Part shown: in pieces, positions 41,543-61,689 of the stretch
Layout of the letters: every line of letters begins with the position of its first letter
Position numbering within the stretch: position 1 is the first letter of the stretch
Made by a program: the position numbers and the translations under genes
Notes under the pieces: generated by a model
Seen by the model: only the letters and a program-made list of their open reading frames with translations
Told to the model about the DNA's origin: nothing
Database searches by the model: none
NCBI RefSeq assembly: GCF_009498275.1
Contig: NZ_CP045643.1
Location: forward strand, 5,208,001-5,272,000
Source of the DNA: Streptomyces fagopyri
GTDB taxonomy: Bacteria > Actinomycetota > Actinomycetes > Streptomycetales > Streptomycetaceae
Direction of reading: 5' to 3'
Length of the DNA: 64,000 nt

Positions 41543-41557
41543 CTGACGGATTGTCAG
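41543..41557. promoter_or_regulatory. Operator CTGAC-N5-GTCAG, ligase promoter
   Basis: CTGAC-GGATT-GTCAG is a perfect dyad, extended by GATT on one side, 16 bases upstream of the ligase GTG. Confidence 0.65.
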
Positions 41558-41616
41558 ATTCAAGCGGGAGCGTAGGCCGCACCGCCTTGTCGGTCCATAG
41601 GCGCGGAGCTAGCCTG

Positions 41617-41639
41617 CTATCTGACGGGTCATCAGATAG
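41617..41639. promoter_or_regulatory. Operator of the same family, amidohydrolase promoter
   Basis: CTATCTGA (41617-41624) and TCAGATAG (41632-41639) are perfect 8-bp arms with a 7-base spacer. In register with the other sites the core reads CTGAC-GGGTC-ATCAG. Confidence 0.65.
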
Positions 41640-41661
41640 GTATGCCAGGCGGAGGCCACTC

Positions 41662-42855
41662 ATGACGGAACTGCCGCGGATCGTCAGCGTCGACGACCAC
41701 GTGATCGAGCCCGCGCACCTCTTCGAGACCTGGCTGCCCGCGAAGTACCGCGACCGCGGGCCCAAGCCCCTCACGGCCGGCATCGGCGAGCTCGCCTACG
41801 TCGGCGGCAAGTACCGCATCACGATGGACCCGGACGGCCCGCCCACCGACTGGTGGATCTACGAGGACCTCAAGTTCCCGTACAAGCGCAACATCGCCGC
41901 CGTCGGCTTCGACCGCGACGAGATGACCCTGGAGGGCATCACCCGCGCGGAGATGCGGCCCGGCTGCTGGGACCCCGCCGAGCGCCTCAAGGACATGGAC
42001 CTCAACCACGTCGAGGCCAGCCTCTGCTTCCCGACCTTCCCGCGCTTCTGCGGCCAGACCTTCGCCGAGGCGCACGACAAGGAGGTGGCCCTGGCCTGCG
42101 TACGCGCCTACAACGACTGGATGGTCGAGGAGTGGTGCGGTGACAGCGGCGGCCGGCTGATCCCGCTCTGCCTCATCCCGCTGTGGGACATCGACCTGGC
42201 CGTCGTGGAGATCCGGCGCAACGCGGCCCGCGGCGTGCGCGCGGTGACCTTCTCCGAGATCCCCACCCACCTGGGCCTGCCCTCCATCCACTCCGGCCAC
42301 TGGGACCCGTTCTTCGCGATCTGCCAGGAGACCGGCACGGTCGTGAACATGCACATCGGGAGCAGCAGCCAGATGCCCGCGGCCTCCCCGGACGCGCCTC
42401 CCGCCGTCCAGGCGTCGCTGTCCTTCAACAACGCGATGGCCTCGATGATGGACTTCCTCTTCAGCGGCGTCCTGGTGAAGTTCCCGCGCCTCAAACTCGC
42501 CTACTCCGAGGGACAGATGGGCTGGATCCCGTACGCCCTGGAGCGCGCCGACGACGTCTGGGAGGAACACCGCGCCTGGGGCGGCGTCAAGGACCTCGTC
42601 CCCGAGCCCCCGTCGACGTACTACTACCGCCAGATCTTCTGCTGCTTCTTCCGCGACAAGCACGGCGTCGCGTCCCTGGACGTCGTGGGCCGCGACAACG
42701 CCACCTTCGAGACCGACTACCCGCACGTCGACTCGACCTTCCCGCACACCAAGGAGGTCGCCCTCGACCATGTGAAGGGCCTCGACGACGAGACGGTCCA
42801 CAAGCTGATGCGCGGCAACGCGATCCGCATGCTGGACCTGGACCTCGACAGGTAG
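41662..42855 (+). CDS. Amidohydrolase family 2 protein
   Basis: This 397-residue TIM-barrel protein has the N-terminal metal site DDHVIEPAHLF, the mid segment NMHIGSSSQMP and the terminal ETDYPHVDSTFPHT. The family includes metal-dependent decarboxylases and hydrolases such as those acting on ring-cleavage or hydroxy-aromatic acids. The ATG at 41662 follows GGAGG at 41651-41655. It begins a run of three genes (spacings 7 and 9 bases) with two acyl-CoA dehydrogenases. Which bond it cuts is not evident. Confidence 0.87.
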   Translation: MTELPRIVSVDDHVIEPAHLFETWLPAKYRDRGPKPLTAGIGELAYVGGKYRITMDPDGPPTDWWIYEDLKFPYKRNIAAVGFDRDEMTLEGITRAEMRPGCWDPAERLKDMDLNHVEASLCFPTFPRFCGQTFAEAHDKEVALACVRAYNDWMVEEWCGDSGGRLIPLCLIPLWDIDLAVVEIRRNAARGVRAVTFSEIPTHLGLPSIHSGHWDPFFAICQETGTVVNMHIGSSSQMPAASPDAPPAVQASLSFNNAMASMMDFLFSGVLVKFPRLKLAYSEGQMGWIPYALERADDVWEEHRAWGGVKDLVPEPPSTYYYRQIFCCFFRDKHGVASLDVVGRDNATFETDYPHVDSTFPHTKEVALDHVKGLDDETVHKLMRGNAIRMLDLDLDR

Positions 42856-42862
42856 CCGGCCC

Positions 42863-44017
42863 GTGGACCTCACGTACACGGCCGAGGAGGAGGAGTTCCG
42901 GGCCGGGCTGCGCGAGTGGCTCGCCAAGGCGCTCCCGGCGCTGCCCCCGAAACCCTCCCCGGACGACTGGCCAGGCCGCCGCGCCTACGACCTCGGGTGG
43001 CAGCGGACCCTGTACGACGCCGGGTACGCCGGACTGCACTGGCCCCTCGACGCCGGAGGCCGGGGCGCGACGCCGGTCCAGCACCTCATCTACCTGGAGG
43101 AGACCGAGAAGGCGGGCGCCCCCTACGTGGGGGCCAATTTCGTCGGGCTGCTGCACGCCGGACCGACGATCGCCGCCGAAGGGACCGCCGGGCAGCGGGC
43201 GCGCTGGCTGCCGCCGGTGCTGCGCGGCGAGGAGGTCTGGTGCCAGGGGTTCAGCGAACCGGACGCGGGCTCGGACCTCGCGGCGCTGCGCACGCGCGCG
43301 TGGCGGGACGGCGACGACTACGTGGTGAGCGGGTCCAAGATCTGGACGTCCCACGCCGAGGTCGCCGACTGGTGCGAGCTGCTGGTGCGCACCGACCCGG
43401 CCGCGCCGAAACACCGCGGCATCTCCTGGCTCGCGATGCCCATGGACGCTCCCGGGATCACCGTCCGTCCGCTGCGCACGCTCGCCGGGCCGGCCGAGTT
43501 CGCCGAGGTCTTCCTCGACGAGGTGCGGATACCGGTCGCCCACCGCGTCGGCGCCGAGAACGACGGCTGGCGCGTGACGATGGTGACGTTGTCGTACGAA
43601 CGCGGGACCGCCTTCGTCGGCGAGGTCGTGGCGTGCCGGCGGGTCCTGGGCGAACTCGCCCACGCGGCGCGCGGCAACGGGCGCTGGGACGATCCCGTGC
43701 TGCGACGGTGGCTGGGCAGGCTCAACGCCGAGTTCCGCGCGCTGTGGCGGCTCACCCAGTGGAACGTGAGCGAGGCCGGGCGGACGGGCGGAGTGCCGGG
43801 CGTCGGCGGCTCGGTCTTCAAGCTGCGGTACTCGCACGCGCGCCAGGAGCTGTACGACGCCGCCGCCGAGGTCCTCGGCCCCGAGGCGCTGGACCTGGAC
43901 CGGGAGTGGACCCGCGACCGCCTGATGTCCCTCTCGTACACCATCGCGGCCGGCACCTCGCAGATCCAGCGCAACATCGTCGCCGAACGCATCCTGGGTC
44001 TGCCGAAAGGGCGGTGA
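42863..44017 (+). CDS. Acyl-CoA dehydrogenase (FadE), first of an adjacent pair
   Basis: This 384-residue protein has EEEEFRAGLREWLAK at the start, WCQGFSEPDAGSDLAAL, SGSKIWTSHAEVADWCELLVR and the C-terminal AAGTSQIQRNIVAERILGLP. The family oxidises acyl-CoA to enoyl-CoA. The pairing with a shorter, less conserved dehydrogenase next door is the layout of heterotetrameric FadE pairs of steroid and bile-acid degradation. This subunit keeps the typical FAD and substrate motifs. Confidence 0.9.
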   Translation: MDLTYTAEEEEFRAGLREWLAKALPALPPKPSPDDWPGRRAYDLGWQRTLYDAGYAGLHWPLDAGGRGATPVQHLIYLEETEKAGAPYVGANFVGLLHAGPTIAAEGTAGQRARWLPPVLRGEEVWCQGFSEPDAGSDLAALRTRAWRDGDDYVVSGSKIWTSHAEVADWCELLVRTDPAAPKHRGISWLAMPMDAPGITVRPLRTLAGPAEFAEVFLDEVRIPVAHRVGAENDGWRVTMVTLSYERGTAFVGEVVACRRVLGELAHAARGNGRWDDPVLRRWLGRLNAEFRALWRLTQWNVSEAGRTGGVPGVGGSVFKLRYSHARQELYDAAAEVLGPEALDLDREWTRDRLMSLSYTIAAGTSQIQRNIVAERILGLPKGR

Positions 44018-44026
44018 GCTCACCCC

Positions 44027-45013
44027 GTGGACTTCCAACTCACCGAGGACCAACGCGCCTTGCGGGACGGCGTACGGGCGCTGCTGGCGGGCCGTTTCGG
44101 GCCGGAGCCACTGCGGGCGGCGGTGGCCCGCGGCGGCCGGGGTCTCGACCGGGCGCTGTGGCGCGAGCTGGGCGAGGCGGGCTTCTTCTCGCTGCGGCTG
44201 CCGGAGGCGGACGGCGGCGCCGGACTCGGACTGCCCGAGGCGGTACTGGCGTTCGAGGAGGCGGGCCGCGTGCTGCTCCCGGGCCCCCTGGTCGCGACGC
44301 ATCTCGCGGCCGGTGAGGTGCCCGGGGCGGCGACCGGCGAGACCGTGGTCACCGCCGTGTACGGCGGGCTGGTGGAATGGCTGGACGAGTCCGACGCCGT
44401 ACGGGACGGCGCCTGGGGCCCTGCCGCGGGCGGCGCGGCGGATGCCGTACCGCTCACCTCCGTGGACCCGCTGACACCGCTGCACCGAGTGCCCGGGAAC
44501 CTCCCCACCGGCCCCACCGGCCGAGCAGGTCCCGCCGGCCGAGCAGGTCCCGTCGGTTCCCCCGCCCCCACCGGCCCTCCCCGCCCCCCGGATCCCCTCG
44601 TCACGCTCCTCACCGCCGCCGAGCAGCTCGGCAACGCCGCCCGGACCTGTGAGACGGCGGTGCAACACGCCCGGACCCGTGAGCAGTTCGGGCAGCCGAT
44701 CGGGGCCTTCCAGGCGGTCAAACACCTGTGCGCGCAGATGCTGGTGCGGGTGGAGCTGGCCCGGGCCGCGGTCTACGCGGCCGCCGTGACCGCGGACCCC
44801 ATGGACATCGCGGCGGCCCGGCTGCTCGCCGACGACGCCGCCGTGCGCGGCGCCCGTGACTGCCTCCAGGTGCACGGCGGTATGGGCTTCACCTGGGAGT
44901 CCGACGTCCATCTGTATCTCAAGCGGGCATGGGTGCGGACCCGGCGAGGCGGGACTGTCACGGAGAGTGAGGAGCTGTTGGCGGCCGATCTGCTGGCCGG
45001 AGCGGGCCGGTGA
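44027..45013 (+). CDS. Acyl-CoA dehydrogenase-like protein, short partner subunit
   Basis: This 328-residue protein has the fold start DFQLTEDQRALRDGVRALL, TREQFGQPIGAFQAVKHL and VHGGMGFTWESDVHLYLKRA. It lacks most of the middle beta-domain (no SEPDAGSD motif). In its place is a Gly/Pro/Thr-rich stretch near residues 160-190 (TGPTGRAGPAGRAGPVG). It is likely the non-catalytic or half-site partner of the upstream dehydrogenase. The collagen-like linker is unusual. Confidence 0.85.
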   Translation: MDFQLTEDQRALRDGVRALLAGRFGPEPLRAAVARGGRGLDRALWRELGEAGFFSLRLPEADGGAGLGLPEAVLAFEEAGRVLLPGPLVATHLAAGEVPGAATGETVVTAVYGGLVEWLDESDAVRDGAWGPAAGGAADAVPLTSVDPLTPLHRVPGNLPTGPTGRAGPAGRAGPVGSPAPTGPPRPPDPLVTLLTAAEQLGNAARTCETAVQHARTREQFGQPIGAFQAVKHLCAQMLVRVELARAAVYAAAVTADPMDIAAARLLADDAAVRGARDCLQVHGGMGFTWESDVHLYLKRAWVRTRRGGTVTESEELLAADLLAGAGR

Positions 45014-45489
45014 GGCCCTGTCCAGGCAGGCTCCGGGACGGGCCGCGCCGAATGTCACGGATCGTGGCATTTCGGCATCACGGAGCGTCGATATCGGGTT
45101 GTGTCCTTTGCGTGACTTGTCACGGCCTGGAGTCGGCGTCGGGCTCGGGTACCTTGTGTGGGATGCGAGTGGTTCCGAGACTGAGCCATCCCGGTGTTGC
45201 CCCTGAGGCCGCGCCGGATCCGGCGATGCTCGCCGTTCGTGAGGCGGTCCGGGACCCCGTGACCGTCTGTTCGACTCCCCGTGGCGAGCGTCGCACAGTA
45301 TCCCGCAGGCGTACTCCTTCGCGCTGGAATATGCCCGAAGCGCTTGTTGGGGTGACTGTACGTCAACCATGCTGTCTCTCAAGGGAATCACGTTCTGTGA
45401 TTCTGGTTCTGGTCATGCGGGTCATGGCCACGATCGTGGCCCTCGTGAGGCGCGAGGCGATGTGTCCGCCGGTTCGGATGGTGTGAGCG
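45014..45489. other. Intergenic region with a possible small ORF (45163-45486)
   Basis: The 476-base gap before the HATPase gene is less biased in codon use than the real genes. It contains TACCTT at 45150-45155, seven bases before an ATG at 45163, so a leaderless transcript is possible. The rest shows no strong hairpins apart from short dyads. Confidence 0.4.
45163..45486 (+). CDS. Possible 107-residue protein of unknown function
   Basis: The ORF begins MRVVPRLSHPGVAPEAAPDPAM and ends 3 bases before the HATPase GTG, which would allow translational coupling. Its third-position GC is weaker than that of the neighbours, especially in the second half, and no family is recognised. It could be a real small gene or a transcribed leader that happens to stay open. 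Confidence 0.3.
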   Translation: MRVVPRLSHPGVAPEAAPDPAMLAVREAVRDPVTVCSTPRGERRTVSRRRTPSRWNMPEALVGVTVRQPCCLSRESRSVILVLVMRVMATIVALVRREAMCPPVRMV

Positions 45490-45966
45490 GTGCAGGTGCT
45501 TCAAGTGCAGCTGGAGATCCGGCCCGACCCCGCGGAGGTGGGGCGAGCCCGGAGATGGGCCCGGTCGCGGCTCGCCGGATCAGGCATAGAGACCGACGAG
45601 CCGCTCGCCGAGACACTGATCCTGCTCGTCTCCGAGCTCGTCACCAACGCCGTGGTGCACACCGGGTGTCCGGCCGTCCTGCGGCTGTCCCTGCCGGGTG
45701 TCCCCGGTGAGTCGCTGGGCACGGTCCGCCTGGAGGTGGCCGACTCCAGCGACTGCCCCCCGCGGCCCCGGCACGCCGAGGGCGACGAGACCAACGGCCG
45801 CGGCCTGGAACTGGTCGACGGACTCGCGGACCGCTGGGGCTGGAACCCCGAGGGTGTCGGCAAGAGCATCTGGTGCGAGGTGGACCGCTGTACGTCCGCC
45901 GCGAAGGCCCCGGCGGCGTACGTGACCTATCAGGGCTTCGCCTACGAGGCGTACGAGGCCGTCTGA
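45490..45966 (+). CDS. RsbW-like ATP-binding protein (HATPase_c_2)
   Basis: This 158-residue single-domain GHKL ATPase has LILLVSELVTNAVVHTG (N-box), VRLEVADSSDCPPRPR (G1-like) and TNGRGLELVDGLADRWGW (G2). Such proteins in Streptomyces act as anti-sigma kinases or accessory regulators. The STAS gene at 38932 could encode a partner, but there is no direct evidence for this. The C-terminus ends in an aromatic-rich tail (YQGFAYEAYEAV). Confidence 0.87.
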   Translation: MQVLQVQLEIRPDPAEVGRARRWARSRLAGSGIETDEPLAETLILLVSELVTNAVVHTGCPAVLRLSLPGVPGESLGTVRLEVADSSDCPPRPRHAEGDETNGRGLELVDGLADRWGWNPEGVGKSIWCEVDRCTSAAKAPAAYVTYQGFAYEAYEAV

Positions 45967-46391
45967 CGCGTACGCGATTCGTGCATGTATGCACGGATCG
46001 CGGCTCTCCGGCGGTGGGCCGGGCCGAATGCGCCGGGTCGTGCTTCTCTGCGCGCCGTCACAAAGGGCCCATAAGTGATAATCCCCCGAACGGGTGTTGA
46101 CGTGACGTGTCCGTTTGATCACGCTTATGGACAGCGATGCGCCGCGAGGGGACGGCGAGGGTTCCGGTGACGGGAACCCTCGGCGAGTGCGGATCGTGAT
46201 TCGGCGTCGGCTCCTTCGGGGTCCCAAGGGGCAGGGCGGCTGCGCCGGAGCCGGATGGCGGCGCGCGTTGCCGTGCTCGGGGCGAGCAGTGACGCGCCGC
46301 CAGTCGACTCCTTCCGTCGCCTTCCGCTGATTTCCTCCGGTTCCTTCTGTGCGTCCCCGTGCCCCTGCGCCTCCAGGTGTCCCTGTGGTGC
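45967..46391. other. Intergenic region with a 13-bp dyad after the HATPase gene
   Basis: GCGATTCGTGCAT (45974-45986) and ATGCACGGATCGC (45989-46001) form a nearly perfect dyad (12 of 13) eight bases after the stop. A second dyad, GGTTCC-N7-GGAACC, lies near 46160-46178. The region also has a weak ORF at 46115-46330 without support. The dyads probably terminate the two convergent transcripts. Confidence 0.4.
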
Positions 46392-47327
46392 CTACAGCAG
46401 GGCGACGGGGGCGACCGGTGTGCCCGTACCGCCCACGAAGGGTTCGGGCATCGCCGACAGCAGGAAGGAGTAGCGGCCTTCTTCTCCACAGGCTGTGGAC
46501 AACTCTTCGAGATTCCAGTTCTGGCCCTGCAGCATCCCCATCTCGACCAGGTCGAGCGCGTGCACGGGCAGCCAGAGGTCCTCGATCTCGGGAGGGAAGA
46601 TCTCGAAGGTGAGGGTGTCGTTCGCGACGGCCGCGACCTCACGCGCGTGGAACCACTCCGGCGTGTGGACGGACAGTCCCGGCGACGGATATCCGTACCC
46701 GTGCTTGTCGCCCGCCAGATAGACCTGGATCTGACCGGTGCGTACGAGCACGATGTCCCCCGCCCGCACCCGGGTGCCGGCCAGCTCCTCGGCGGCGTCC
46801 AGGTCCTCGGGGGTCACCGCGTGCCCGCCGTCGAGGCGGCCGACGCCCCGGGCGCGGGCGACGTCCAGCAGTACGCCCCGCGAGACGATGTGCCGGGGCT
46901 TGTCGATGCCGCCGAACGCTGCGCCGCCGTGCGGGGTGATCGTGCCGGCCGGGCGGCCGTTGTAGAGCATCCCCGAGTGCGAGACGTGCGTCAGCGCGTC
47001 CCAGTGGGTCGCCGCCTGCAGTCCCAGGGTCACGGCGTCGTCGCTGCACGCGACGGTGCCGGGGCCGAAGATCTCCTGGTTGATCTGCACCATGACGTGC
47101 AGCGGATTGACCCGCCCGGGGATCATGCCGGTCTGCACCCCGTCCTGCTCGAGGGGGAGTGCGAGGGGGACGCGGCGGCCCGAGCGGACGCCCGCCGCGG
47201 CCCGGCGCACCACCTCGTCGGTGATGAGGTTCAGGGTCCCGATCTCGTCGTCGGCACCCCAACGGCCCCAGTTGTTCACGCGCTTGGCGATCTCGTGGAA
47301 GGCCGGGTGGAGCGTCGGCAGTGACAT
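46392..47327 (-). CDS. Cyclase family protein (metal-dependent hydrolase, kynurenine formamidase-like)
   Basis: This 311-residue protein has ATHWDALTHVSHSGMLYNGRP, the metal-binding H-x-D-x3-H motif of the cyclase family (PF04199), followed by GRRVPLALPLEQDG-type strands and VRTGQIQVYL. The family hydrolyses amide or cyclic diketone bonds, for example formylkynurenine or isatin. Its promoter shares the 47359-47400 operators with the divergent SDR gene, so it is part of the regulon and might open a ring. Confidence 0.87.
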   Translation of the reverse strand: MSLPTLHPAFHEIAKRVNNWGRWGADDEIGTLNLITDEVVRRAAAGVRSGRRVPLALPLEQDGVQTGMIPGRVNPLHVMVQINQEIFGPGTVACSDDAVTLGLQAATHWDALTHVSHSGMLYNGRPAGTITPHGGAAFGGIDKPRHIVSRGVLLDVARARGVGRLDGGHAVTPEDLDAAEELAGTRVRAGDIVLVRTGQIQVYLAGDKHGYGYPSPGLSVHTPEWFHAREVAAVANDTLTFEIFPPEIEDLWLPVHALDLVEMGMLQGQNWNLEELSTACGEEGRYSFLLSAMPEPFVGGTGTPVAPVALL

Positions 47328-47358
47328 GAGTCCTCCCCGAGGGCTTGTCTCCGGGTAT

Positions 47359-47373
47359 CTGACGGGTCGTAGA
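47359..47373. promoter_or_regulatory. Degenerate operator copy, cyclase/SDR promoter
   Basis: TATCTGAC-GGGTC-GTAGA keeps the left half (with the TAT extension) but has only part of the right half. Confidence 0.4.
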
Positions 47374-47385
47374 ATCCAGTTGAAT

Positions 47386-47400
47386 CTAACGGACCGTCAG
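47386..47400. promoter_or_regulatory. Operator CTAAC-N5-GTCAG, SDR promoter
   Basis: CTAAC-GGACC-GTCAG has one mismatch in the left half, lies 23 bases before the SDR start and is 12 bases downstream of the degenerate copy. Confidence 0.6.
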
Positions 47401-47422
47401 AAACTGCGGGAAGGGGCCGGAC

Positions 47423-48334
47423 GTGGGGAACTTCTTGGCGGGCCAGGTCGTCGCCGTGACGGGGGCGGGCCGGGGCATCGGCCGCGCCGTCGCGCTCGCC
47501 GCGGCCGGGGAAGGGGCGCGCGTCGTCGTCAACGACTACGGGGTGTCTGTCGAGGGCGCCGAGCCCACGAGTTCGGTCGCCGACGCCGTGGTCAAGGAGA
47601 TCGAGGCGGCAGGCGGGGAAGCCGTCGCGGTGGCCGACGACATCTCCACGATGGCGGGCGGACAGCACGTCGTCGACACGGCGCTGACGGCGTACGGGCG
47701 GATCGACGGAGTCGTGTGCGTGGCCGGCATCCTGCGCGAGCGGATGCTGTTCAACATGTCCGAGCAGGAGTGGGACTCGGTCGTGGCCACCCATCTGAAG
47801 GGCACGTTCACGGTCTTCCGGGCGGCCTCGGCCGTCATGCGCGCACAGGGCTCGGGAACGCTCATCGGTTTCACCAGCGGCAATCACCAGGGTTCCGTGG
47901 CGCAGGCCAACTACAGCGCGGCCAAGGGCGGGATCATCTCGCTGGTCCGCAGCGCGGCACTCGGCCTGCACAAGTACGGGGTGACGGCGAACGCGGTCGC
48001 TCCGGTCGCCCGTACCCGCATGTCCGCGGGCGTCCCCATGGAACTGGCGGAGATCGGCGAACCGGAGGACGTCGCCGCGCTGGTGGTCTACCTGCTGTCG
48101 GACCGCGCCCGGCGGGAACGGATCACCGGGCAGGTGTACACGATCGCCGGGCCGAAGATCGCGGTGTGGGCGCAGCCGCGGGAACTGCGGGCCGGGTACG
48201 CGGAGGGCGCCTGGACCCCGGAGCGGATCGCGGACTTCCTGCCGGGCACGGTGGGGGTGGATCCGATGCCACTGCTGGAGCGGGTGGAGGCGATGGCGCG
48301 GGCGGCGGCGGAGAAGGCGCGGCCGAACGCGTGA
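47423..48334 (+). CDS. SDR-family dehydrogenase (3-hydroxyacyl-CoA dehydrogenase/HSD17B4-like)
   Basis: This 303-residue oxidoreductase has the cofactor motif TGAGRGIG (residues 13-20), the catalytic Tyr164-x3-Lys168 (YSAAK) and an upstream Ser152. The stretch VCVAGILRERMLFNMSEQEWD is typical of the 17-beta-HSD type 4 group that oxidises (3R)-hydroxyacyl-CoA. It probably carries out the third step of the beta-oxidation cycle in this regulon. The GTG at 47423 follows GGGAAGGGG. Confidence 0.88.
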   Translation: MGNFLAGQVVAVTGAGRGIGRAVALAAAGEGARVVVNDYGVSVEGAEPTSSVADAVVKEIEAAGGEAVAVADDISTMAGGQHVVDTALTAYGRIDGVVCVAGILRERMLFNMSEQEWDSVVATHLKGTFTVFRAASAVMRAQGSGTLIGFTSGNHQGSVAQANYSAAKGGIISLVRSAALGLHKYGVTANAVAPVARTRMSAGVPMELAEIGEPEDVAALVVYLLSDRARRERITGQVYTIAGPKIAVWAQPRELRAGYAEGAWTPERIADFLPGTVGVDPMPLLERVEAMARAAAEKARPNA

Positions 48335-48370
48335 GGGTGCCGTGGTGCCGGCCGAGTGGGAGGACGACAC

Positions 48371-49528
48371 ATGGAGTTCGGATTCGACGCCGAGGACGAG
48401 GTCTTCCGGCGTACGGCACGGGACTGGCTTGCGGCGCACCATACGGGAGACCCGGGCCGCCGGGACTGGGAACGGGAGCTCGGACGGGACGGCTGGATCG
48501 GCCTCGGATGGCCGGAGGACGGGTACGGGAACCGGCGCGCGACCCTGACCCAGCAGGTCGTCTGGGCCGAGGAGTACGCCCGTTCGGGGGCCCCCGCGCG
48601 CTCGGGTCACATCGGCGAGAAACTCCTCGCCCCCACCCTCATCGGCCATGGCACGGCTGAGCAGAAGGCCCGCTTCCTGCCCCCGATCGCCCGCGGCGAG
48701 GAACTCTGGTGCCAGGGCTACAGCGAGCCCGGTGCGGGCTCCGACCTCGCGGGCATCACGACGACCGCCGTACCGGAGGAGGGTTCCGCGGCCGCCCGGA
48801 CGTACCGCGTCAGCGGCCAGAAGATCTGGACCTCGCTCGCCCACGAGGCGGACTGGTGCTTCGTCCTGGCCCGCACCCGGCCGGACGCGCAGCGCCACCA
48901 CGGCCTGTCCCTGCTCCTCGTCCCGATGGACCAGCCGGGCCGCGTCGAGGTCCGGCCGATCCGCCAGCTCACCGGCACCAGCGAGTTCAACGAGGTCTTC
49001 TTCGACGGGGCGCGGGCGCGGGCCGAGCATGTCGTCGGCGGCGAGGGCAACGGCTGGCGGGTGGCCATGAGCCTGCTCGGACACGAGCGCGGCGTCTCGA
49101 CACTCGCCCAGCAGGTCGGCTTCGCCGCGGAGCTGCGACGTGTCGTCGAGACGGCCGTCTCGACGGGCGCGGCCGACGATCCGGTCGTCCGCGACGGTCT
49201 GGTGCGGCTGTGGGCGGAACTGCGCACCATGCGCTGGAACGCCCTGCGGACACTGGGCGGTTCGGGCGACGTGGGCGCGCCGAGCGTCGCCAAGCTGCTG
49301 TGGGGAGGCTGGCACCAGCGGCTCGGTGACCTCGCGGTGCGGGTACGGGGAGCTGAGGCGTCGACCGGCCCACTGGACTGGTCGGCCGCGGCGCCGTACG
49401 AACTCGACCCACTCCAGCACCTGTTCCTGTTCAGCCGGGCCGACACCATCTACGGCGGCTCGGACGAGATCCAGCGCACGATCATCGCCGAGCGCGTGCT
49501 CGGTCTGCCGAAGGAACCCAGGGGATAG
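48371..49528 (+). CDS. Acyl-CoA dehydrogenase
   Basis: This 385-residue flavoenzyme has WCQGYSEPGAGSDLAGI, SGQKIWTSLAHEADWCFVLAR, FDGARARAEHVVGGEGNGW and the C-terminal GGSDEIQRTIIAERVLGLPK. It follows the SDR gene by 36 bases and is probably co-transcribed. Similarity in layout to the 42863 protein suggests related substrates at a different step of the pathway. Confidence 0.9.
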   Translation: MEFGFDAEDEVFRRTARDWLAAHHTGDPGRRDWERELGRDGWIGLGWPEDGYGNRRATLTQQVVWAEEYARSGAPARSGHIGEKLLAPTLIGHGTAEQKARFLPPIARGEELWCQGYSEPGAGSDLAGITTTAVPEEGSAAARTYRVSGQKIWTSLAHEADWCFVLARTRPDAQRHHGLSLLLVPMDQPGRVEVRPIRQLTGTSEFNEVFFDGARARAEHVVGGEGNGWRVAMSLLGHERGVSTLAQQVGFAAELRRVVETAVSTGAADDPVVRDGLVRLWAELRTMRWNALRTLGGSGDVGAPSVAKLLWGGWHQRLGDLAVRVRGAEASTGPLDWSAAAPYELDPLQHLFLFSRADTIYGGSDEIQRTIIAERVLGLPKEPRG

Positions 49529-49556
49529 CCCCGGGGACGAGAGGGGAGCCGGTGCG

Positions 49557-50606
49557 ATGCGAGGCGTGATCTTCGACGGCAAGCAGACCCAGGTCGTGGA
49601 CGACCTGGAGGTACGCGATCCGGGACCCGGCGAGGTGCGGGTCGCCGTCGCCGCGGCCGGACTCTGCCACAGCGACCTCTCGGTGGTGGACGGGACCATA
49701 CCGTTCCCCGTTCCGGTGGTGCTGGGCCACGAGGGTGCCGGGGTCGTCGAGTCGGTGGGCGCGGGCGTCACCCACGTCCGGCCCGGAGACCATGTCGCGC
49801 TGTCGACACTCGCCAACTGCGGCGCGTGCGCGGAGTGCGACCGGGGACGGCCGACGATGTGCCGCAAGGCGATCGGCATGCCCGGACAGCCGTTCGAGCG
49901 GGGCGGGCGACCGCTGTACCAGTTCGCCTCCAACTCGGCCTTCGCGGAACGGACGGTGGTGAAGGCCGTCCAGGCCGTCCGGATCCCGGGGGACATCCCG
50001 CTGCCGTCCGCCGCGCTGATCGGCTGCGGGGTGCTGACGGGCGTGGGCGCCGTACTGAACCGCGCGCGGGTGGACCACGGCGAGAGCGTCCTCGTGATCG
50101 GCACGGGCGGCATCGGGCTCAACGTGATCCAGGGGGCGCGGATCGCGGGCGCCCTGAAGATCGTCGCGGTCGACTCCAACCCGGCCAAGGAGACGGTGGC
50201 CCGCCGGTTCGGCGCCACCCACTTCCTCACCTCCACCGAGGCCGTCCGGGAGATCCTCCCCACGGGCGCGGACCACGCCTTCGAGTGCGTCGGCCGGGTC
50301 GAACTCATCCGCCAGGCGATCGACCTGCTGGACCGCCACGGCCAGGCGGTGCTCCTCGGCGTACCGCCCGCCACCGCCGAGGCGTCCTTCCTCGTCTCCG
50401 CGATGTACCTGGACAAGTCGATCCTCGGCTGCCGCTACGGTTCGTCGCGACCGCAGCGCGACATCGCCCGCTACGCGGACCTCTACCGCGAGGGCCGCCT
50501 GCTGCTCGACGAACTGGTCACCAGGACCTACCCGGTGGAGGAGTTCGACAAGGCGGCGCACGACGCGCACGAGGGGAGGGTGGCTCGGGCGGTACTGACG
50601 TTCTAG
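49557..50606 (+). CDS. Zinc-dependent alcohol dehydrogenase (MDR family)
   Basis: This 349-residue protein has the catalytic zinc ligands in AGLCHSDLSVVDG and VVLGHEGAGVVESVG, the structural zinc loop CGACAECDRGRPTMC, and the NAD motif IGTGGIGLNVIQGARIAG. It resembles class III/Rv3086-type long-chain alcohol or mycothiol-dependent dehydrogenases. The ATG at 49557 follows AGGGGAG. It likely oxidises an alcohol intermediate of the same regulon, being last in the SDR transcript. Confidence 0.9.
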   Translation: MRGVIFDGKQTQVVDDLEVRDPGPGEVRVAVAAAGLCHSDLSVVDGTIPFPVPVVLGHEGAGVVESVGAGVTHVRPGDHVALSTLANCGACAECDRGRPTMCRKAIGMPGQPFERGGRPLYQFASNSAFAERTVVKAVQAVRIPGDIPLPSAALIGCGVLTGVGAVLNRARVDHGESVLVIGTGGIGLNVIQGARIAGALKIVAVDSNPAKETVARRFGATHFLTSTEAVREILPTGADHAFECVGRVELIRQAIDLLDRHGQAVLLGVPPATAEASFLVSAMYLDKSILGCRYGSSRPQRDIARYADLYREGRLLLDELVTRTYPVEEFDKAAHDAHEGRVARAVLTF

Positions 50607-50614
50607 GGAGCGCT

Positions 50615-50674: not shown

Positions 50675-50718
50675 CACAGGCCGGGGAAATCCGCTGGGGC
50701 GGTGTCGGTGCGGTCCCC

Positions 50719-50724: not shown

Positions 50725-50730
50725 CGTCGC

Positions 50731-53085: not shown

Positions 53086-53156
53086 GGCCCGATCCTAGCG
53101 AATGATGTCCTTCGGGCCACTCGTTCGGGAAGGCCGAAAGCCCGAAGCTCTATGTC
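53086..53156. promoter_or_regulatory. Divergent promoter region with an 8-bp dyad
   Basis: CTTCGGGC (53110-53117) / GCCCGAAG (53140-53147) is a perfect dyad between the GlxA-type gene and the second MFS gene, a plausible binding site for that regulator. Confidence 0.45.
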
Positions 53157-54474: not shown

Positions 54475-54476
54475 GG

Positions 54477-55340: not shown

Positions 55341-55409
55341 GCCTTCAGCCTGCCGCCGGGCACCCCTGGGCAGCCACCGGGAAGCCCCTCGCCCTACCCT
55401 GAACCGTCC

Positions 55410-55424
55410 CTGACCTCACGTCAG
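55410..55424. promoter_or_regulatory. Possible additional CTGAC-N5-GTCAG site
   Basis: CCCTGAC-CTCAC-GTCAGGG has the same half-sites but a different extension (CC/GG instead of TAT/ATA), so it might belong to another regulator. It lies upstream of the secreted-protein gene. Confidence 0.35.
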
Positions 55425-55460
55425 GGTTCGTCCCCGAGTTTCAGGGACCGGACTCCCCGA

Positions 55461-56117
55461 TCACCTGGACGAACCGGCCTGGACGAAGCGCCCCCGGTGG
55501 AACAGCAACGGCGCGACGCCCTCGCCACCGCCACCGTCTCCCGTCCCGAGCGCGTCCACCCGTCCGACCACGATGAGATGGTCCCCGCCCGTGTGCACCG
55601 CGTGGATCGTGCAGTCGATCCAGGCCGCGGCCCCCGCGAGACGGGGGGAGCCGGAGACGGGCGCCGCGTCGTACCCGACCCCCGCGAACTTGTCCGCCCC
55701 GCTCACCGCGAACCCACGGCACAGGTCGCCCTGATGCGCGCCCAGCACGTTCACGCAGAAGACGCCGGCGCGGGCGATCCGTGGCCAGGTCGCCGACGTG
55801 CGGCCGACCATGAAACAGACCAGCGGTGGGTCCAGGGAGAGGGAGGAGAACGACTGGCAGGCGAAACCGGCGGGCCCCGCCCCCGCCGCCTCCGCGGGTC
55901 CCTCCGGCGCGGTGACGACGGTCACACCGGTCGCGAAGTTCCCCAGTACCCGCCGGAACTCGCCCGGATCGACCGGCGCCCGCTCGTCCTCGCCGACCGC
56001 GCGCAGTTCGGGCCGCGGCAGCATCTCGACCGGCCCCGCGACGGTGGGGGCCCCGGCCGACCGGAGATAGCGCACGGCGGCCGCCGCCATTCCTGCGTGT
56101 CCCATCACGCCAGCCAT
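55461..56117 (-). CDS. Flavin reductase family protein
   Basis: This 218-residue protein has FRRVLGNFATGVTVVTA, GFACQSFSSLSLDPPLVCFMVGRTSATWPRI (in part), FCVNVLGAHQGDL and DHLIVVGRVDALG, typical of the FMN-dependent reductases (HpaC/HsaB type) that supply FMNH2 to a monooxygenase. The partner could be the FAD protein at 60094 or a monooxygenase elsewhere. Start candidates are ATG 56117 and ATG 56105; neither has a ribosome site. The operator at 56123-56137 almost touches the upstream start. Confidence 0.85.
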   Translation of the reverse strand: MAGVMGHAGMAAAAVRYLRSAGAPTVAGPVEMLPRPELRAVGEDERAPVDPGEFRRVLGNFATGVTVVTAPEGPAEAAGAGPAGFACQSFSSLSLDPPLVCFMVGRTSATWPRIARAGVFCVNVLGAHQGDLCRGFAVSGADKFAGVGYDAAPVSGSPRLAGAAAWIDCTIHAVHTGGDHLIVVGRVDALGTGDGGGGEGVAPLLFHRGRFVQAGSSR

Positions 56118-56122
56118 TGAAC

Positions 56123-56137
56123 CTGACGTGCCGTCAG
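56123..56137. promoter_or_regulatory. Operator CTGAC-N5-GTCAG, flavin reductase promoter
   Basis: CTGAC-GTGCC-GTCAGATA, a perfect dyad with the ATA extension, 5 bases upstream of the ATG at 56117. Confidence 0.65.
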
Positions 56138-56266
56138 ATAGGAAGGGGGCGGGGAGCGCGGAGCGCGGAGCGAGGGGAGGAGGGCGGCGAGGACTCCACC
56201 GGACGCGCCGGACGCGTCGGACGGCCCGCGGATCGCGAGGCGGAGCCGACCGGCTGTCACGGTCTC

Positions 56267-57160
56267 TCACCGGCCCCGGTACTCGGCCGCCCGCCGCTCC
56301 ACGAAGCTCGCCACCCCTTCCTTCGCGTCCGCCGTCGTCATGTTGATCTCCTGGGCGGCCGCCTCCGCGGCGAACGCGGCGGTGCGGTCGGTGTCGAGGG
56401 AGGCGTTGACCAGCTGTTTGGTGAGGGCCAGGGCGCGCGTCGGCCCCGTGGCCAGGCGTTCGGCCCACTCGCGTGCGGTCTTCTCCAGGTCCTCGGGCGG
56501 GACGACGCGGTTGACGAGACCGAGGCGTTCGGCGTCTCTGGCCGTGAGCGCGTCGCCGAAGAACATCAGCTCCTTCGCGCGCTGCGGCCCGATGAGACGC
56601 GGCAGCAGATACGCTCCTCCGCCGTCGGGGACCAGTCCGCGACGCACGAACACCTCGATGAACCGGGCCGGTTCGGCGGCGAGTACGAGGTCGCAGGCGA
56701 GGGCGAGATGGGCGCCGAGACCGGCCGCGGTGCCGTTGACCGCCGCGATCACCGGCTTCTCGCAGTCGAGGACCGCCGCGACGAGCCGCTGGGCGCCGAG
56801 CCGGAGCGTGCGGGCGACGTCGCCGGTGATCCGCTCGCCCGCCGCGGGCGCCCCCCTCAGGTCCGCGCCCGCGCAGAAACCGCGGCCCGTCGCGGTGATC
56901 ACCACGGCCCGGACGTCCGGATCCGCGGACGCCGACGCGAGCAGCGCGATCACGCGTTCGCGCTGGTCCCAGGTGAGGGCGTTCATCGTCTGGGGGCGGT
57001 CGAGGGTGATCCACGAGACGGCGTTGTCAGTGGCGTGACGTATCAATGAGTCGAGAGGGGCGGGCTTGTCAGGAGATCGAATGGATTCATCTGTTTTCCG
57101 TGATTCGGCGGATTCATCGGATTCACCGGATTCGGCCGACGGGCGGGGGGAGGCGGGCAT
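56267..57160 (-). CDS. Enoyl-CoA hydratase/isomerase
   Basis: This 297-residue crotonase has NAVSWITLDRPQTMNALTW, GFCAGADLRGAP, PVIAAVNGTAAGLGAHLALACDLVLA (in part) and VRRGLVPDGGGAYLLPRLIG, with both oxyanion loops and the EVFVRRGLVPD glutamate-side segment present. The first 35 residues are Ser/Glu/Asp-rich (SGESDESAESRKTDES), encoded by imperfect GGATTC repeats near 57090-57135. They could be dispensable, with a real start further in. It is probably the hydration step of the second regulon. Confidence 0.88.
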   Translation of the reverse strand: MPASPRPSAESGESDESAESRKTDESIRSPDKPAPLDSLIRHATDNAVSWITLDRPQTMNALTWDQRERVIALLASASADPDVRAVVITATGRGFCAGADLRGAPAAGERITGDVARTLRLGAQRLVAAVLDCEKPVIAAVNGTAAGLGAHLALACDLVLAAEPARFIEVFVRRGLVPDGGGAYLLPRLIGPQRAKELMFFGDALTARDAERLGLVNRVVPPEDLEKTAREWAERLATGPTRALALTKQLVNASLDTDRTAAFAAEAAAQEINMTTADAKEGVASFVERRAAEYRGR

Positions 57161-57212
57161 GAGGGTGCTCCAGTTCGTACGGGACGTGGTCGGCGGTCGG
57201 TGGCGCGGCCGG

Positions 57213-59438
57213 TCAGCGGCACACCACCAGGGCGTCCAGCGCCACCGCGCCCTGCCCTCTGGGCAGCACCATCAGCGGGTTGATGTCGAGCTCGGCGATG
57301 TCGTCACCGAGCTCCAGGGCCATCCGCTGGACACGCAGGACGACCTCGACGAGCGCGTCCACATCCACCGGCGGCGCCCCCCGCACGCCGTCCAGGAGCG
57401 CCCGGCCGCGCAGCTCGCGGAGCATCCCCCGGGCCTGGTCCTCACCGAAGGGCGGCACACGGACGGCCGTGTCCCGCAGCACCTCGACGAGGACGCCACC
57501 GAGCCCGACGGCCACGGTCGGCCCGAACAGCCGGTCGTGCGTGACCCCCACGACCATCTCGACGCCCCGCTCGACCATCTGGCACACCAGCACCCCGTCC
57601 AGCGAGATCCCCTCGTAGCGCGCGATGTCGGTCAGTTCGCGGTAGGCGTCCCTGACCTGGCTCGCGGAGGTCAGCCCGATCTTCACCAGGCCGAGTTCGG
57701 TCTTGTGGGCGATCTGCGCGCCGGAGGCCTTCATGACCACGGGGTAGCCCACCAGGCCGGCCGCGCGCACGGCAGCCGCCGCGCTGGTCACCAACTGCTC
57801 GCGCGGCACCCGGATCCCGTACGCGCGCAGCAGCTGTTTCGCCGCGTGCTCGCTCAGTTGCCGGCCCGGCCGCATCAGTGCCTGGGCCTTGCGGAAGGAG
57901 GGCGAGGGGGTGCGGGGAGCCTCGTCGAAGGGCGAGCGGTACGCGCCGACGAACCGGTGGTGCTCCAGATGGGCCCGCACGGCGGTGATGCAGTTGGCGA
58001 ACGTACGGAAGGTGGCGACCCGCGACGACCCGAGCAGCGTCTCGCGGTAGGCGGCCTCGGTGCCGACCGGCGACCCCCACACCACGCACACCAGCTTGTC
58101 CGTCCCCTCCGCCGCGTCCACCAGGTCCTGCGCGAGCCTGTCGCTCATCGGCGGGAAGGGGCCGGTGATCGGACAGATCAGCACCCCGATCTCCGGATCG
58201 GCGAGGAGGGCGTCGATGATCTTGCGACCGCGCCGGTCGCCGACCGGGTGTCCCCCGTTGTCGACGGGGTTGGCCACGTTCAGGTACTCGGGTATCCACT
58301 GGTGCAGCTCGGCCTGCTTGGCCGCCGAGAGGTCCGGCAGGCGCAGCCCCGCCGCCGTCGCCAGGTCGGCGAAGTGCGCGCCCGTGCCGCCGGAGATCGA
58401 ACAGACGGCGACCCCGTCGGCCAGCGGGGGGCGCGCGCGGGCCAGCAGCGCGGCGGTGTCCTGGAGTTCGTCGAGCCCGTCGACGCGGATCACGCCGTAC
58501 TGCCGCATCGCGGCGTCCACCACCGTGTCGGCGCCGGTCAGCTTGCCGGTGTGGGAGGCGGCGGTGCGGGCGCCGGTCTCGGTGCGGCCGACCTTGACGG
58601 CGACGACGGGCACCCCGCGCCGGGCGGCGCGGTCGGCGGCGAGCAGGAAGGAACGGCCGTCCTTGAGCCCCTCGACGTAGCAGGCGATGGCGCCGACCTC
58701 GGGCCGCTCGGAGAAGTAGGAGATGAAGTCGGCGGTCTCCAGGTCGGCCTCGTTGCCGGTGGGCGCCCAGTGGGAGAGGCGTACGCCCAGTTCCTGCATC
58801 GCGAAGACCGGACGCCCCTGGTGGCCGGACTGGGTGATGAGGGCGACGGCGGGACCGTCGAGGTCGTCGCGGAACCGTTCGAAGGCGTTGAGGTTGGTGT
58901 TGGGGCCCAGCAGTCGCAGGCCGGAGCGGCGGACGGCGGCGGCGAGCCGGGTCTGCGCGGCCGCGCCCTCGGCGCCGGTCTCGGCGAACCCGGAGGCGAA
59001 GGCGACCGCGAACTTCACCTTGGCCTCGCCCAGTTCGCCGATCACGCCGAGCGGGTCGCCGACCAGCAGCGCGGCCAGATCGACCTGCTCGGGCAGGTCC
59101 GCGACGGACGGGAAGCAGGGCAGACCGAAGACGGTCCGGCGGGTGGGGTGCACCGGGTGCAGCCGGGCCCCGACCCGCTCGGCCCAGGAGATCAGCTGCC
59201 GGGTGATGCCGGTGTTCGGCCGTCCCTCGGTGTCCGAGGCGCCGACGACGGCCACCGACTCGGGACGGAAGAAGCGGTCCAGATCGGGCACGTCGGCGTA
59301 CAGCGGGCGCCCGCTGACGTCGAAGTCGTCGACATCGGCCGGCCGGCCGTGCACGACGGGTGAGGGCTGCTCGCCGCAGGCGATGACCCGGGCCCGGCGG
59401 GAGTCGGTGGTGAGGGTGCCGTGGGTTGATCCAAGCAT
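57213..59438 (-). CDS. NDP-forming acyl-CoA synthetase (acetate-CoA ligase ACD type)
   Basis: This 741-residue protein has the domain order CoA-binding (SVAVVGASDTEGRPN), ligase-CoA domains with the phosphohistidine segment AASHTGKLTGAD, and a C-terminal ATP-grasp (AAKQLLRAYGIRVPRE, VVMKASGAQIAHKTELGLVKIG). It makes an acyl-CoA from acid, CoA and ATP with release of ADP. Together with the ATP/AMP ligase it gives the regulon two activation enzymes. The ATG at 59438 is preceded by AGGAG. Two operator copies lie 34-72 bases upstream. Confidence 0.88.
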   Translation of the reverse strand: MLGSTHGTLTTDSRRARVIACGEQPSPVVHGRPADVDDFDVSGRPLYADVPDLDRFFRPESVAVVGASDTEGRPNTGITRQLISWAERVGARLHPVHPTRRTVFGLPCFPSVADLPEQVDLAALLVGDPLGVIGELGEAKVKFAVAFASGFAETGAEGAAAQTRLAAAVRRSGLRLLGPNTNLNAFERFRDDLDGPAVALITQSGHQGRPVFAMQELGVRLSHWAPTGNEADLETADFISYFSERPEVGAIACYVEGLKDGRSFLLAADRAARRGVPVVAVKVGRTETGARTAASHTGKLTGADTVVDAAMRQYGVIRVDGLDELQDTAALLARARPPLADGVAVCSISGGTGAHFADLATAAGLRLPDLSAAKQAELHQWIPEYLNVANPVDNGGHPVGDRRGRKIIDALLADPEIGVLICPITGPFPPMSDRLAQDLVDAAEGTDKLVCVVWGSPVGTEAAYRETLLGSSRVATFRTFANCITAVRAHLEHHRFVGAYRSPFDEAPRTPSPSFRKAQALMRPGRQLSEHAAKQLLRAYGIRVPREQLVTSAAAAVRAAGLVGYPVVMKASGAQIAHKTELGLVKIGLTSASQVRDAYRELTDIARYEGISLDGVLVCQMVERGVEMVVGVTHDRLFGPTVAVGLGGVLVEVLRDTAVRVPPFGEDQARGMLRELRGRALLDGVRGAPPVDVDALVEVVLRVQRMALELGDDIAELDINPLMVLPRGQGAVALDALVVCR

Positions 59439-59471
59439 CGGTCCGCCCGCTCCTGTGTGACAGCCAATTAA

Positions 59472-59486
59472 CTGACGCTCTGTCAG
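59472..59486. promoter_or_regulatory. Operator CTGAC-N5-GTCAG, first of tandem pair
   Basis: CTGAC-GCTCT-GTCAGATTA, a perfect dyad in the promoter region of the NDP-forming synthetase gene. Confidence 0.65.
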
Positions 59487-59495
59487 ATTACTTAA

Positions 59496-59510
59496 CTGAC
59501 GGCCTGTCAG
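59496..59510. promoter_or_regulatory. Operator CTGAC-N5-GTCAG, second of tandem pair
   Basis: CTGAC-GGCCT-GTCAG, a perfect dyad centred 24 bases from the first copy, so slightly more than two helical turns away. Confidence 0.65.
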
Positions 59511-60093
59511 GAACAGTCGTGCAGGCAAAGCCGCGTACGTGCGGTGAGGGCCGTGCGCCGCCGTGGGCAACACGGGCGACAGCTCGTGCGGTGCGTGGCA
59601 GGCGTGTGGCGGTTGTGCGGCAGACGGGCGGCGGTTGCGTGGACGGGCGCGACGGGCACCTGGTTCGTACCCCGCGGTACGGGGCCCGGAACCCGTCGTC
59701 GGGTTCCGGTGTCACGGCCCGAACCCGACGACGGGTTCCGGTGTCCCGGGGCTGGTCCTCGCGCGCCCTCGGCCGTGTACGGCGTCCCGACGGACCTCGC
59801 CCGCCCGTACAGTTCGTCGGGCCCGATCAGCGGTACGTCACCTCGGGCCGCCCCGGCGCCCGGCGCGTCACCGAAGCCCGCGGCGCCGAAGCGGCCGGGC
59901 GAGGGACGGACAGCCGGCCCGGAGTGACGCGCCGACAAGTCCCCAGCTCAATCGCGCACTTCGACGACCACGCGGGTTCCAAGTGACCTACGCCACCATC
60001 CGCACGCACCACTCCTACAGTCGTGATCAGTTCGCAACCGATTCCGGGCTTGACCGAGACCTATCAATTGATGACGTGATTACGCTCGCGCTC

Positions 60094-61287
60094 ATGGCCG
60101 ACTCGACTGCTTCCTCCACACTCCACCCGGTACCGTCACACGAGGACCGCCCCGTGTACGTGATCGGCGGCGGCCCCGGCGGCCTCGCGACGGCGTACGC
60201 GTTGCGCGCCCAGGGCGTACGGGCCGTCGTACTGGAGAAGTCCGACCGGGTCGGGGCCTCCTGGCGGCGTCACTACGACCGGCTGCACCTGCACACGACG
60301 CGGCGGCTGTCCGCCCTCCCGGGACTCGCGATGCCCCGTGCGTTCGGGCGCTGGGTCTCGCGCGACAACGTGGTGCGCTATCTGGAGAAGTACGCCGAGC
60401 ACCACCAGCTGGAGATCGTCACGGGGGTCGAGGTCTCCCGCGTCGAACGCGCCGGCGACTCCTGGCTGCTGCTCGCCACCGGGGGCCGCGAACTGACCGG
60501 CAGCGCGGTCGTCGTCGCCACCGGCCACAACCACACGCCCCGCGTGCCGGACTGGCCCGGCCGCGACGCGTACAGCGGCGAACTCCTGCACGCCGGCGAG
60601 TACCGCAACCCGGCCCCCTACGCCGGACGGGACGTCCTGGTCGTCGGCGTCGGCAACACGGGCGCCGAGATCGCCGTGGACCTGGTCGAGGGCGGCGCCG
60701 GGCGGGTGCGGCTCGCGGTGCGCACCGCCCCGCACATCGTGCGGCGCTCCACGGCCGGCTGGGCGGCCCAGTTCACCGGCATCCTCGTCCGCCGGCTGCC
60801 GGTGCGTCTTGTCGACGCCCTCGCCGGGCCGATGGCCAGGGTGAGCGTCCCCGACCTGTCGGCGCAGGGGCTGCCGCGCCCCGCCACCGGCCTCTACTCG
60901 CGGGTCAAGGAGGGCTCGATCCCCGTCCAGGACGTCGGCCTGATCGACGCCGTGCGCAAGGGGCGGGTCGAGATCGTGGCCGCGGTGGAGGGCTTCGAGG
61001 AGGGCAAGGTCGTCCTCGCCGACGGCACCCGGATCGGCCCCGACGCTGTGATCGCCGCGACCGGGTACGAGCGCGCCCTGGAGGGCATGGTCGGACACCT
61101 CGGCGTGCTGGACGCGCGCGGCCGCCCGGTCGTGCACGGCGGACGCACCCCGAAGAACGCGCCCGGTCTGTACTTCACCGGTTTCACCAACCCCATCAGC
61201 GGCATGTTCCGCGAACTCGCCCTGGACGCGCGGAAGACGGCGAAGGCCGTGGCACGCGCCGCGGGACGGGCCGGCACCGCGAACTGA
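60094..61287 (+). CDS. Flavin-containing monooxygenase-like oxidoreductase (CzcO/YUCCA type)
   Basis: This 397-residue protein has the FAD motif VIGGGPGGLATAYALRA, VLEKSDRVGASWRRHYDRLHLHT, the NADPH motif LVVGVGNTGAEIAVDL and the terminal ATGYERALEGM and GLYFTGFTNPISGMFREL. It belongs to the group-B flavin monooxygenases that do N-, S- or Baeyer-Villiger-type oxidations. The ATG at 60094 has no ribosome site; the palindrome ATCAATTGAT lies 22 bases upstream. No CTGAC operator stands directly in front of it, so its membership in the regulon is only by position. Confidence 0.85.
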   Translation: MADSTASSTLHPVPSHEDRPVYVIGGGPGGLATAYALRAQGVRAVVLEKSDRVGASWRRHYDRLHLHTTRRLSALPGLAMPRAFGRWVSRDNVVRYLEKYAEHHQLEIVTGVEVSRVERAGDSWLLLATGGRELTGSAVVVATGHNHTPRVPDWPGRDAYSGELLHAGEYRNPAPYAGRDVLVVGVGNTGAEIAVDLVEGGAGRVRLAVRTAPHIVRRSTAGWAAQFTGILVRRLPVRLVDALAGPMARVSVPDLSAQGLPRPATGLYSRVKEGSIPVQDVGLIDAVRKGRVEIVAAVEGFEEGKVVLADGTRIGPDAVIAATGYERALEGMVGHLGVLDARGRPVVHGGRTPKNAPGLYFTGFTNPISGMFRELALDARKTAKAVARAAGRAGTAN

Positions 61288-61689
61288 GCCGGTCCCGCGG
61301 GGCGCGCCGGATCCGCAGGCCCTAGTCCGCTCGGCGCGAACCGGGCCCAAGCCGGGCGGCACGAGATCAGCACCGGACACGGGCGGGACAGGACACGGGC
61401 GGGACCAATCACGGGCGGGGCGGGTCCCCACGCTGGACCGCTCACGCGCAGGACCGCTCACGCGCTCACGCGGACACCGGCACGACCGCAGACAAGCAGG
61501 GCCCGACCCGCGCGTGACCCCGAGTCCCGCGGTGGAACCGCCGGCGGCGGTGTTCTCCCGGCAGGCCGGTCCCGTGGCGCCGGGGGTGCTCGACGGGTGG
61601 GTTCGTGTCCCCGCGTCCCTTGCGCGAGGGTGCCTTCGTCCGCTGAACTGACGTACCGTCAGATGGCGGCGACGGCAGGAGGTTCGGCC
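61288..61689. other. Intergenic region with short tandem repeats and one operator
   Basis: The 402-base gap has three copies of ACACGGGCGGGAC-like sequence (61376-61421) and two of GGACCGCTCACGCGC (about 61437-61466). The operator at 61648-61662 is the only likely regulatory element seen. Confidence 0.45.
61648..61662. promoter_or_regulatory. Operator CTGAC-N5-GTCAG, DoxX promoter
   Basis: CTGAC-GTACC-GTCAGAT, a perfect dyad, 27 bases before the DoxX ATG. Confidence 0.65.

Follow-up and report, generated by a model that had tools for sequence, protein, structure and literature searches.

A conserved CTGAC-N5-GTCAG operator in an acyl-CoA catabolic island of Streptomyces fagopyri and a PF19352 TetR-family protein as its probable regulator

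A stretch of 64,000 nucleotides from Streptomyces fagopyri (positions 5208001-5272000 of a single-contig 8.88 Mb genome, here G000), which we call the window, carries a 15-base dyad, CTGAC-N5-GTCAG, that is over-represented, conserved in relatives in front of genes for acyl-CoA catabolism and paired across genomes with a TetR-family protein, TetR-B. In our view TetR-B is very probably an autoregulated repressor of acyl-CoA catabolism that acts through these dyads, its binding, the sign of its effect and its ligand being what we infer from the genomic evidence, and the regulon is a further case of TetR repressors of acyl-CoA catabolism, a known type. A preliminary description of this DNA had proposed that a shared operator links two separated catabolic gene blocks into one undescribed regulon, that its shape fits a TetR-type repressor and that no regulator with an obvious link is encoded there. 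A shared operator that joins the two blocks into one regulon and its TetR-type shape are supported. However, the regulon is larger than two blocks, with dyads extending to about 5.32 Mb (we refer to the genes that they span as the island) and conserved satellites elsewhere, and a likely regulator does lie close by, as the TetR-B gene is situated 4.9 kb beyond the right end of the window.

Allowing up to one mismatch, the window contains 10 sites, compared to 2.99 ± 1.68 in 100 shuffles (largest count 8), and a 164 kb region holds 12 exact copies, against a mean of 0.42 and a maximum of 4 for 59 dyads rearranged from the same letters. Spacers other than five bases (range 0 to 14) yielded 0 or 1 copies in this region, while four GC-rich dyads of different composition were equally or more frequent (12 to 17 copies). 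All 12 exact regional copies are intergenic, and intergenic sequence accounts for 17% of the positions there. The search of the whole genome returned 47 exact copies of the motif and 3 of the reversed pattern; 12 of the 47 are confined to 71 kb, and 20 of the other 35 were intergenic according to a simple gene caller. Additionally, positions outside the fixed letters carry information, with A at -2 (78%) and G at +5 (78%), plus the mirror positions, among 65 exact sites from six genomes considered in both orientations, and these informative flanking and inner positions lead to a 19-base operator, AtCTGACGsnsCGTCAGaT.

The dyad coordinates given in the preliminary description were all correct. 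Exact operators are found at 41543..41557, between the CoA ligase gene (minus strand) and the amidohydrolase gene (plus strand), at 56123..56137, before the flavin reductase gene (minus), at 59472 and 59496 (59472..59510, 24 bp apart), before the gene for the nucleoside diphosphate (NDP)-forming acyl-CoA synthetase (minus), and at 61648..61662, before the DoxX-like and DUF35 genes (plus). The operator at 47386..47400, between the genes for a cyclase (minus) and a short-chain dehydrogenase/reductase (SDR; plus), has one mismatch, and so does the second operator of the CoA ligase-amidohydrolase interval, a variant with extended arms at 41617..41639 whose core spans 41621-41635. The copy at 47359..47373 is degenerate, keeping the left half only, with three mismatches, and appears the same in G007 and not in G016. 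One exact copy, at 55410..55424, was absent from the previous account and is probably no operator: it belongs to a larger inverted repeat that follows the 3' end of the flavin reductase gene and folds as a hairpin (-12.7 kcal/mol), and no dyad was present 3' of the flavin reductase orthologues among the sites catalogued in relatives. For these reasons we rejected it as an operator and consider it a gene-end hairpin.

Conservation was evaluated in four Streptomyces relatives (G013, G009, G007, and G016) and in G026, using reciprocal-best orthologues with at least 38% identity and counting a gene as site-bearing if a dyad with no more than one mismatch lay in the 300 bases before it; the G016 stretch begins inside the island, and the comparison covers it without its left end. 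For the 18 site-bearing genes of S. fagopyri, 68 of 74 orthologues in the five relatives also had a site, compared to 9 of 134 orthologues of genes lacking one, with the 74 orthologues not independent because divergent neighbors share sites. When 59 control dyads were submitted to the same analysis, the pooled result was 34 of 155, with at most 6 for any single dyad. Sites precede the orthologues of the CoA ligase in 3/3 relatives, the amidohydrolase in 1/1, the cyclase in 4/4, the SDR in 3/4, the flavin reductase in 4/5, the NDP-forming acyl-CoA synthetase in 5/5, and the DoxX-like and DUF35 proteins in 4/4. Moreover, paired sites (57213, 75014/76279, and 92878) are still paired in the four Streptomyces relatives, and less so in G026, with differing spacers, and a stricter 17-mer was found in 37 of 41 genomes, while its reversed control was found in none of the 41. 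Outside the island, the comparison of 35 sites of G000 with 37 of G013 resulted in 13 locus pairs, of which 6 are operator-like, 5 consist of copies that both fall within called genes and 2 are at non-matching promoters. The six satellite promoters common to both genomes belong to two luciferase-like genes, a MaoC hydratase gene, a DUF35-thiolase pair, a divergent pair of CoA ligase and enoyl-CoA hydratase genes, and an acyl-CoA dehydrogenase operon, in which the site of G013 precedes the next gene.

The candidate regulator, TetR-B, is a protein of 215 aa encoded on the minus strand at genome positions 5276943-5277590 (L017:4943-5590). Its C-terminal domain matches PF19352 (TetR_C_38) with 248 bits (cut-off 23.9) and its N-terminal TetR helix-turn-helix (HTH) matches PF00440 with 26.7 bits (cut-off 24), while the model built for a protein with 99% identity to it consists almost entirely of helices and has TetR-family structural neighbors. 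An operator with one mismatch, CTGACGGCATGACAG, covers the start codon of the gene (5277584-5277598) in all six genomes compared, with one spacer base different in G026, and a start-codon operator with variable spacer was observed in 74 of 74 assessed loci, drawn from 80 named TetR-B loci, all from Streptomyces, after leaving out the 6 without an anchor. The second codon of the gene is ACA, which represents 2.1% of the Thr codons in the region; its use points to pressure on the DNA, although codon choice after starts may differ for other reasons. TetR-B shows 92-94% identity to its counterparts in the islands of the four Streptomyces relatives and 64% to that of G026, is a strong match in 39 of the 41 genomes and occurs in each of the 25 genomes compared from the same genus. 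The inventory of TetR genes, which scored 150 of 314 candidates and is hence incomplete, lists two in the island, TetR-A (5307059-5307841) and TetR-B.

The association between PF19352 and the motif was also observed across 148 genomes of the class, 30 of which have a clear PF19352 protein: at least 15 sites were counted in 24 of these 30 genomes versus none of the 118 others. PF19352 matches occurred in 35 genomes, 33 of them above the cut-off, and five genomes with weak matches (G067, G068, G104, G118, and G143, with 5, 2, 9, 8, and 1 sites, respectively) were counted as being without the protein, although three pass the Pfam cut-off. Five of the 24 genomes (G051, G073, G091, G107, and G123) belong to family f15 and have 232-473 copies of the motif each. 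A 200 kb stretch of G051 contains 13 copies: 6 are flanked by convergent genes, 6 fall within called genes and 1 occupies another gap. Several copies overlap stop codons, which gives the impression of a short element that combines a stop codon with a two-way hairpin. We rejected the high f15 counts as support, the G051 copies being an element of another kind, and because of this f15 was dropped, which leaves 19 of 25 PF19352 genomes with at least 15 sites. Genomes of f16 have 10-24 sites with PF19352 versus 3 and 6 without it (one-sided p 0.026), and those of f20 have 16-24 versus 7-14 (one-sided p 0.0065). In seven loci of f14, f16, f20, and f24, homologues of TetR-B (43-53% identity) mostly have acyl-CoA, SDR or luciferase-like genes as neighbors, and in six of these loci a site with at most one mismatch precedes the TetR gene or the operon to which it belongs; of three f15 homologues (39-42% identity), two are directly preceded by a site with one mismatch and the third lacks one.

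According to the mechanism that we propose, a TetR-B dimer would occupy the dyads near the starts of the acyl-CoA catabolic genes, as well as the dyad over its own start codon, thereby limiting its own expression. The helical pocket would take up a metabolite of the pathway, the parent acid or an acyl-CoA being the probable ligand, and TetR-B would leave the DNA, upon which the island and the scattered satellite operons may be switched on together.

Several observations weigh against this proposal. The 15 of the 47 exact genomic copies that fall inside called genes are probably no operators, and a high motif count by itself proves nothing. The genomes of the class are related, so the p values given above overstate independence, and the reversed control, too, averaged slightly more copies where PF19352 is present (2.2 versus 1.3), with counts unscaled for genome size. 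In G060 (f24), a homologue with 43% identity has no site nearby; G028, G032, G033, and G035 (genera g4 and g5) keep TetR-B at 59-60% identity, and the stretches read from these four genomes lack the island genes as well as a site at the TetR-B start. Furthermore, within the order the strict-motif counts are tracked at least as well by a KstR-like TetR protein (G000 6456478-6457017; 197 bits against a cut-off of 280 for NF033703), which is strong in 34 of the 41 genomes, and G010, G028, G032, G033, and G035, which do not have it, show 0 or 1 strict matches.

Another TetR regulator, either the KstR-like protein or TetR-A, might bind the dyads instead; these counts speak for the KstR-like protein, CTGAC sites do occur near its gene, and TetR-A is encoded in the island itself, in the gene run behind the sites 5300744/5300806. 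However, the KstR-like gene carries a different dyad, AACNNGTT, which we take to be the motif of KstR, upstream in 4/4 genomes read, whereas the start of TetR-B carries the CTGAC operator, and a CTGAC operator with at most one mismatch between the KstR-like gene and its divergent neighbor was absent from three of the four genomes read and single in G013. TetR-A, in turn, is unmatched in the islands of the five relatives although the sites are kept there, and it was rejected as the regulator for not being conserved together with the sites. Binding by either protein is quite unlikely in our assessment, the KstR-like protein being a disfavored candidate. A role of the dyads in transcription termination, or as some other hairpin at gene ends, is very improbable. 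The copy at 55410 does look like such a hairpin, and the copies between convergent genes of G051 would suggest the same, but the other island copies precede gene starts, many of them between divergent genes, and their arms are preserved whereas the five bases in between vary. Another explanation accepts that TetR-B binds the sites but assumes that it activates, or that it serves mainly some other role, such as sporulation, with catabolism being secondary. SCO4421, a TetR gene of Streptomyces coelicolor near afsK (SCO4423), is likely the orthologue of TetR-B, judging by gene order, and is reported to show up-regulation in development, expression in spore chains, lower expression in a whiA mutant and, upon deletion, no phenotype that was detected (PMC3878966). 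The retention of TetR-B and its start site in G003 and G010, although most island genes are missing from the stretches read, would also fit such a role. The conserved sites, on the other hand, are mostly beside acyl-CoA or redox genes, and we regard this explanation as unlikely compared with TetR-B acting as a repressor of acyl-CoA catabolism.

The regulon was called undescribed in the preliminary description, and indeed no description of the operator or the regulon was found in titles and abstracts of the open-licence papers searched, which also provided no function, regulon or operator for SCO4421 and no paper for the motif letters, PF19352 or TetR_C_38. In mycobacteria and rhodococci, steroid catabolism is controlled by the TetR repressors KstR and KstR2, and the system proposed here resembles theirs in the TetR repressor type (with repression by TetR-B presumed), the large acyl-CoA regulon, the dispersed palindromic operators and the overlapping enzyme types (acyl-CoA dehydrogenases, Ltp2/ChsH2, and FadD3). 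It differs in that TetR-B is not listed among the matches to NCBIfam NF033703 (cut-off 280 bits), for which TetR-A reaches 31.5 bits, in that the start site of TetR-B is of the CTGAC type rather than the AACNNGTT type, and in that G000 encodes a separate KstR-like protein and has no KshA match. Sensors of the FasR, DesT, and FadR type share the TetR fold, and an acyl-CoA is a plausible ligand for the TetR-B model as well, but they are structurally less similar to TetR-B than EthR and control different gene sets. EthR of Mycobacterium tuberculosis shares its fold with the TetR-B model, with 18% identity in the structure alignment and about 28 bits with phmmer, restricted to the HTH; its motif is described as exceeding a simple palindrome in size and complexity (PMC4482099), in contrast to the many simple dyads and the large regulon of the TetR-B system.

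The genes next to the operators in the window encode an acyl-CoA ligase (AMP-binding; 39995..41527, minus), an amidohydrolase (Amidohydro_2; 41662..42855, plus), two acyl-CoA dehydrogenases (42863-44017 and 44027-45013, plus), the first of them with 4x28 and 6wy9 as best PDB matches, a putative cyclase (PF04199; 46392..47327, minus), and an SDR, an acyl-CoA dehydrogenase and a zinc alcohol dehydrogenase (47423..50606, plus). These are followed by a flavin reductase (55461..56090, minus), an enoyl-CoA hydratase (56267..56986, minus), the NDP-forming acyl-CoA synthetase (57213..59438, minus), and a DoxX-like membrane protein (below the Pfam cut-off) with a DUF35/ChsH2-like protein (61690..62588, plus). 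An FMO-like monooxygenase gene (60154..61287, plus) has no site within 300 bases, with a site in 1/4 relatives, and is a doubtful member of the regulon.

Past the window, in window-equivalent numbering, exact sites are located at 76205, 76232, 89611, 92744, 92806, and 112686, and one-mismatch sites at 66904, 66977, and 69584. The island genes of this part encode a thiolase, an acyl-CoA dehydrogenase with an F420H2 quinone reductase, an enoyl-CoA hydratase, DUF35 and lipid-transfer thiolase proteins, a FadD3-family ligase, amidohydrolases, luciferase-like monooxygenases, an aldehyde dehydrogenase and SDRs. The lipid-transfer thiolase (L017:11014-12174) matches chain A of 6ok1 (lipid-transfer protein, E 5e-100) and its DUF35 partner (L017:10552-11004) matches chain B (ChsH2, E 1e-18), indicating the presence of a side-chain aldolase pair of the Ltp2-ChsH2 type. 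The genes for TetR-B, a glyoxalase and an AfsK-like kinase (kinase plus pyrroloquinoline quinone (PQQ) repeats) are consecutive, and one for an AfsR-like regulator comes further along, an order that is compact in G003 and G010 and contains insertions in G000; the names AfsK and AfsR are based on domain make-up and gene order. In the catabolic island, to which both belong, a distance of 13 kb separates the AfsK-like kinase gene (L017:6719-9043) from the AfsR-like regulator gene (L018:2468-5404). Between the FadD3 and AfsR-like genes, positions 79989-85564 (window-equivalent) comprise genes unmatched in the islands of the five relatives, one of them encoding 1633 aa. Genes for SDR3, SDR4, and TetR-A (L018:13321-15841), which close the luciferase/aldehyde dehydrogenase run, have no orthologue in these islands either, SDR3 and SDR4 having just 30-34% matches there, and the segment looks like a later insertion.

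Regarding the substrate, the island encodes enzyme types that belong to the breakdown of steroid side chains or of terpenoid acids, and 6ok1, 4x28, and 6wy9 are steroid side-chain enzymes. KshA (PF19298, KshA_C), one steroid-ring marker, had no match in G000, and for this reason classical steroid growth is unlikely as judged from this marker; among the 41 genomes, 9 have some KshA_C match and 2 a full-length one (about 300 bits). The KstR-like gene and its AACNNGTT dyad are nevertheless present in G000. We take the TetR-B regulon to be separate from that of the KstR-like protein because the latter has its own AACNNGTT site. The earlier suggestion that both blocks serve a common pathway, with a cyclic or branched acid as substrate, stands in part: the genes are indeed those of acyl-CoA catabolism and include steroid-side-chain-like enzymes, but a single pathway is unsupported, and KshA was not found.

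Only tentatively, as a possibility that we hold to be rather doubtful, could these results be extended to the view that PF19352 regulators are a family of repressors found widely among actinobacteria, with an operator that hardly varies. In Streptomyces, where their gene would be placed at the antibiotic-control locus afsK-afsR, they would govern a conserved pathway similar to steroid side-chain degradation, with a polycyclic or terpenoid acid as substrate, in strains that have no enzymes for the steroid ring. If this is true, substrate sensing could be coupled to development and the onset of antibiotic production. Overall, a testable function, an operator and a target list are now proposed for a TetR gene present in each of the 25 compared genomes of the genus, marking a large catabolic programme, and the motif can help to locate more genes of the pathway in genomes that bear PF19352.

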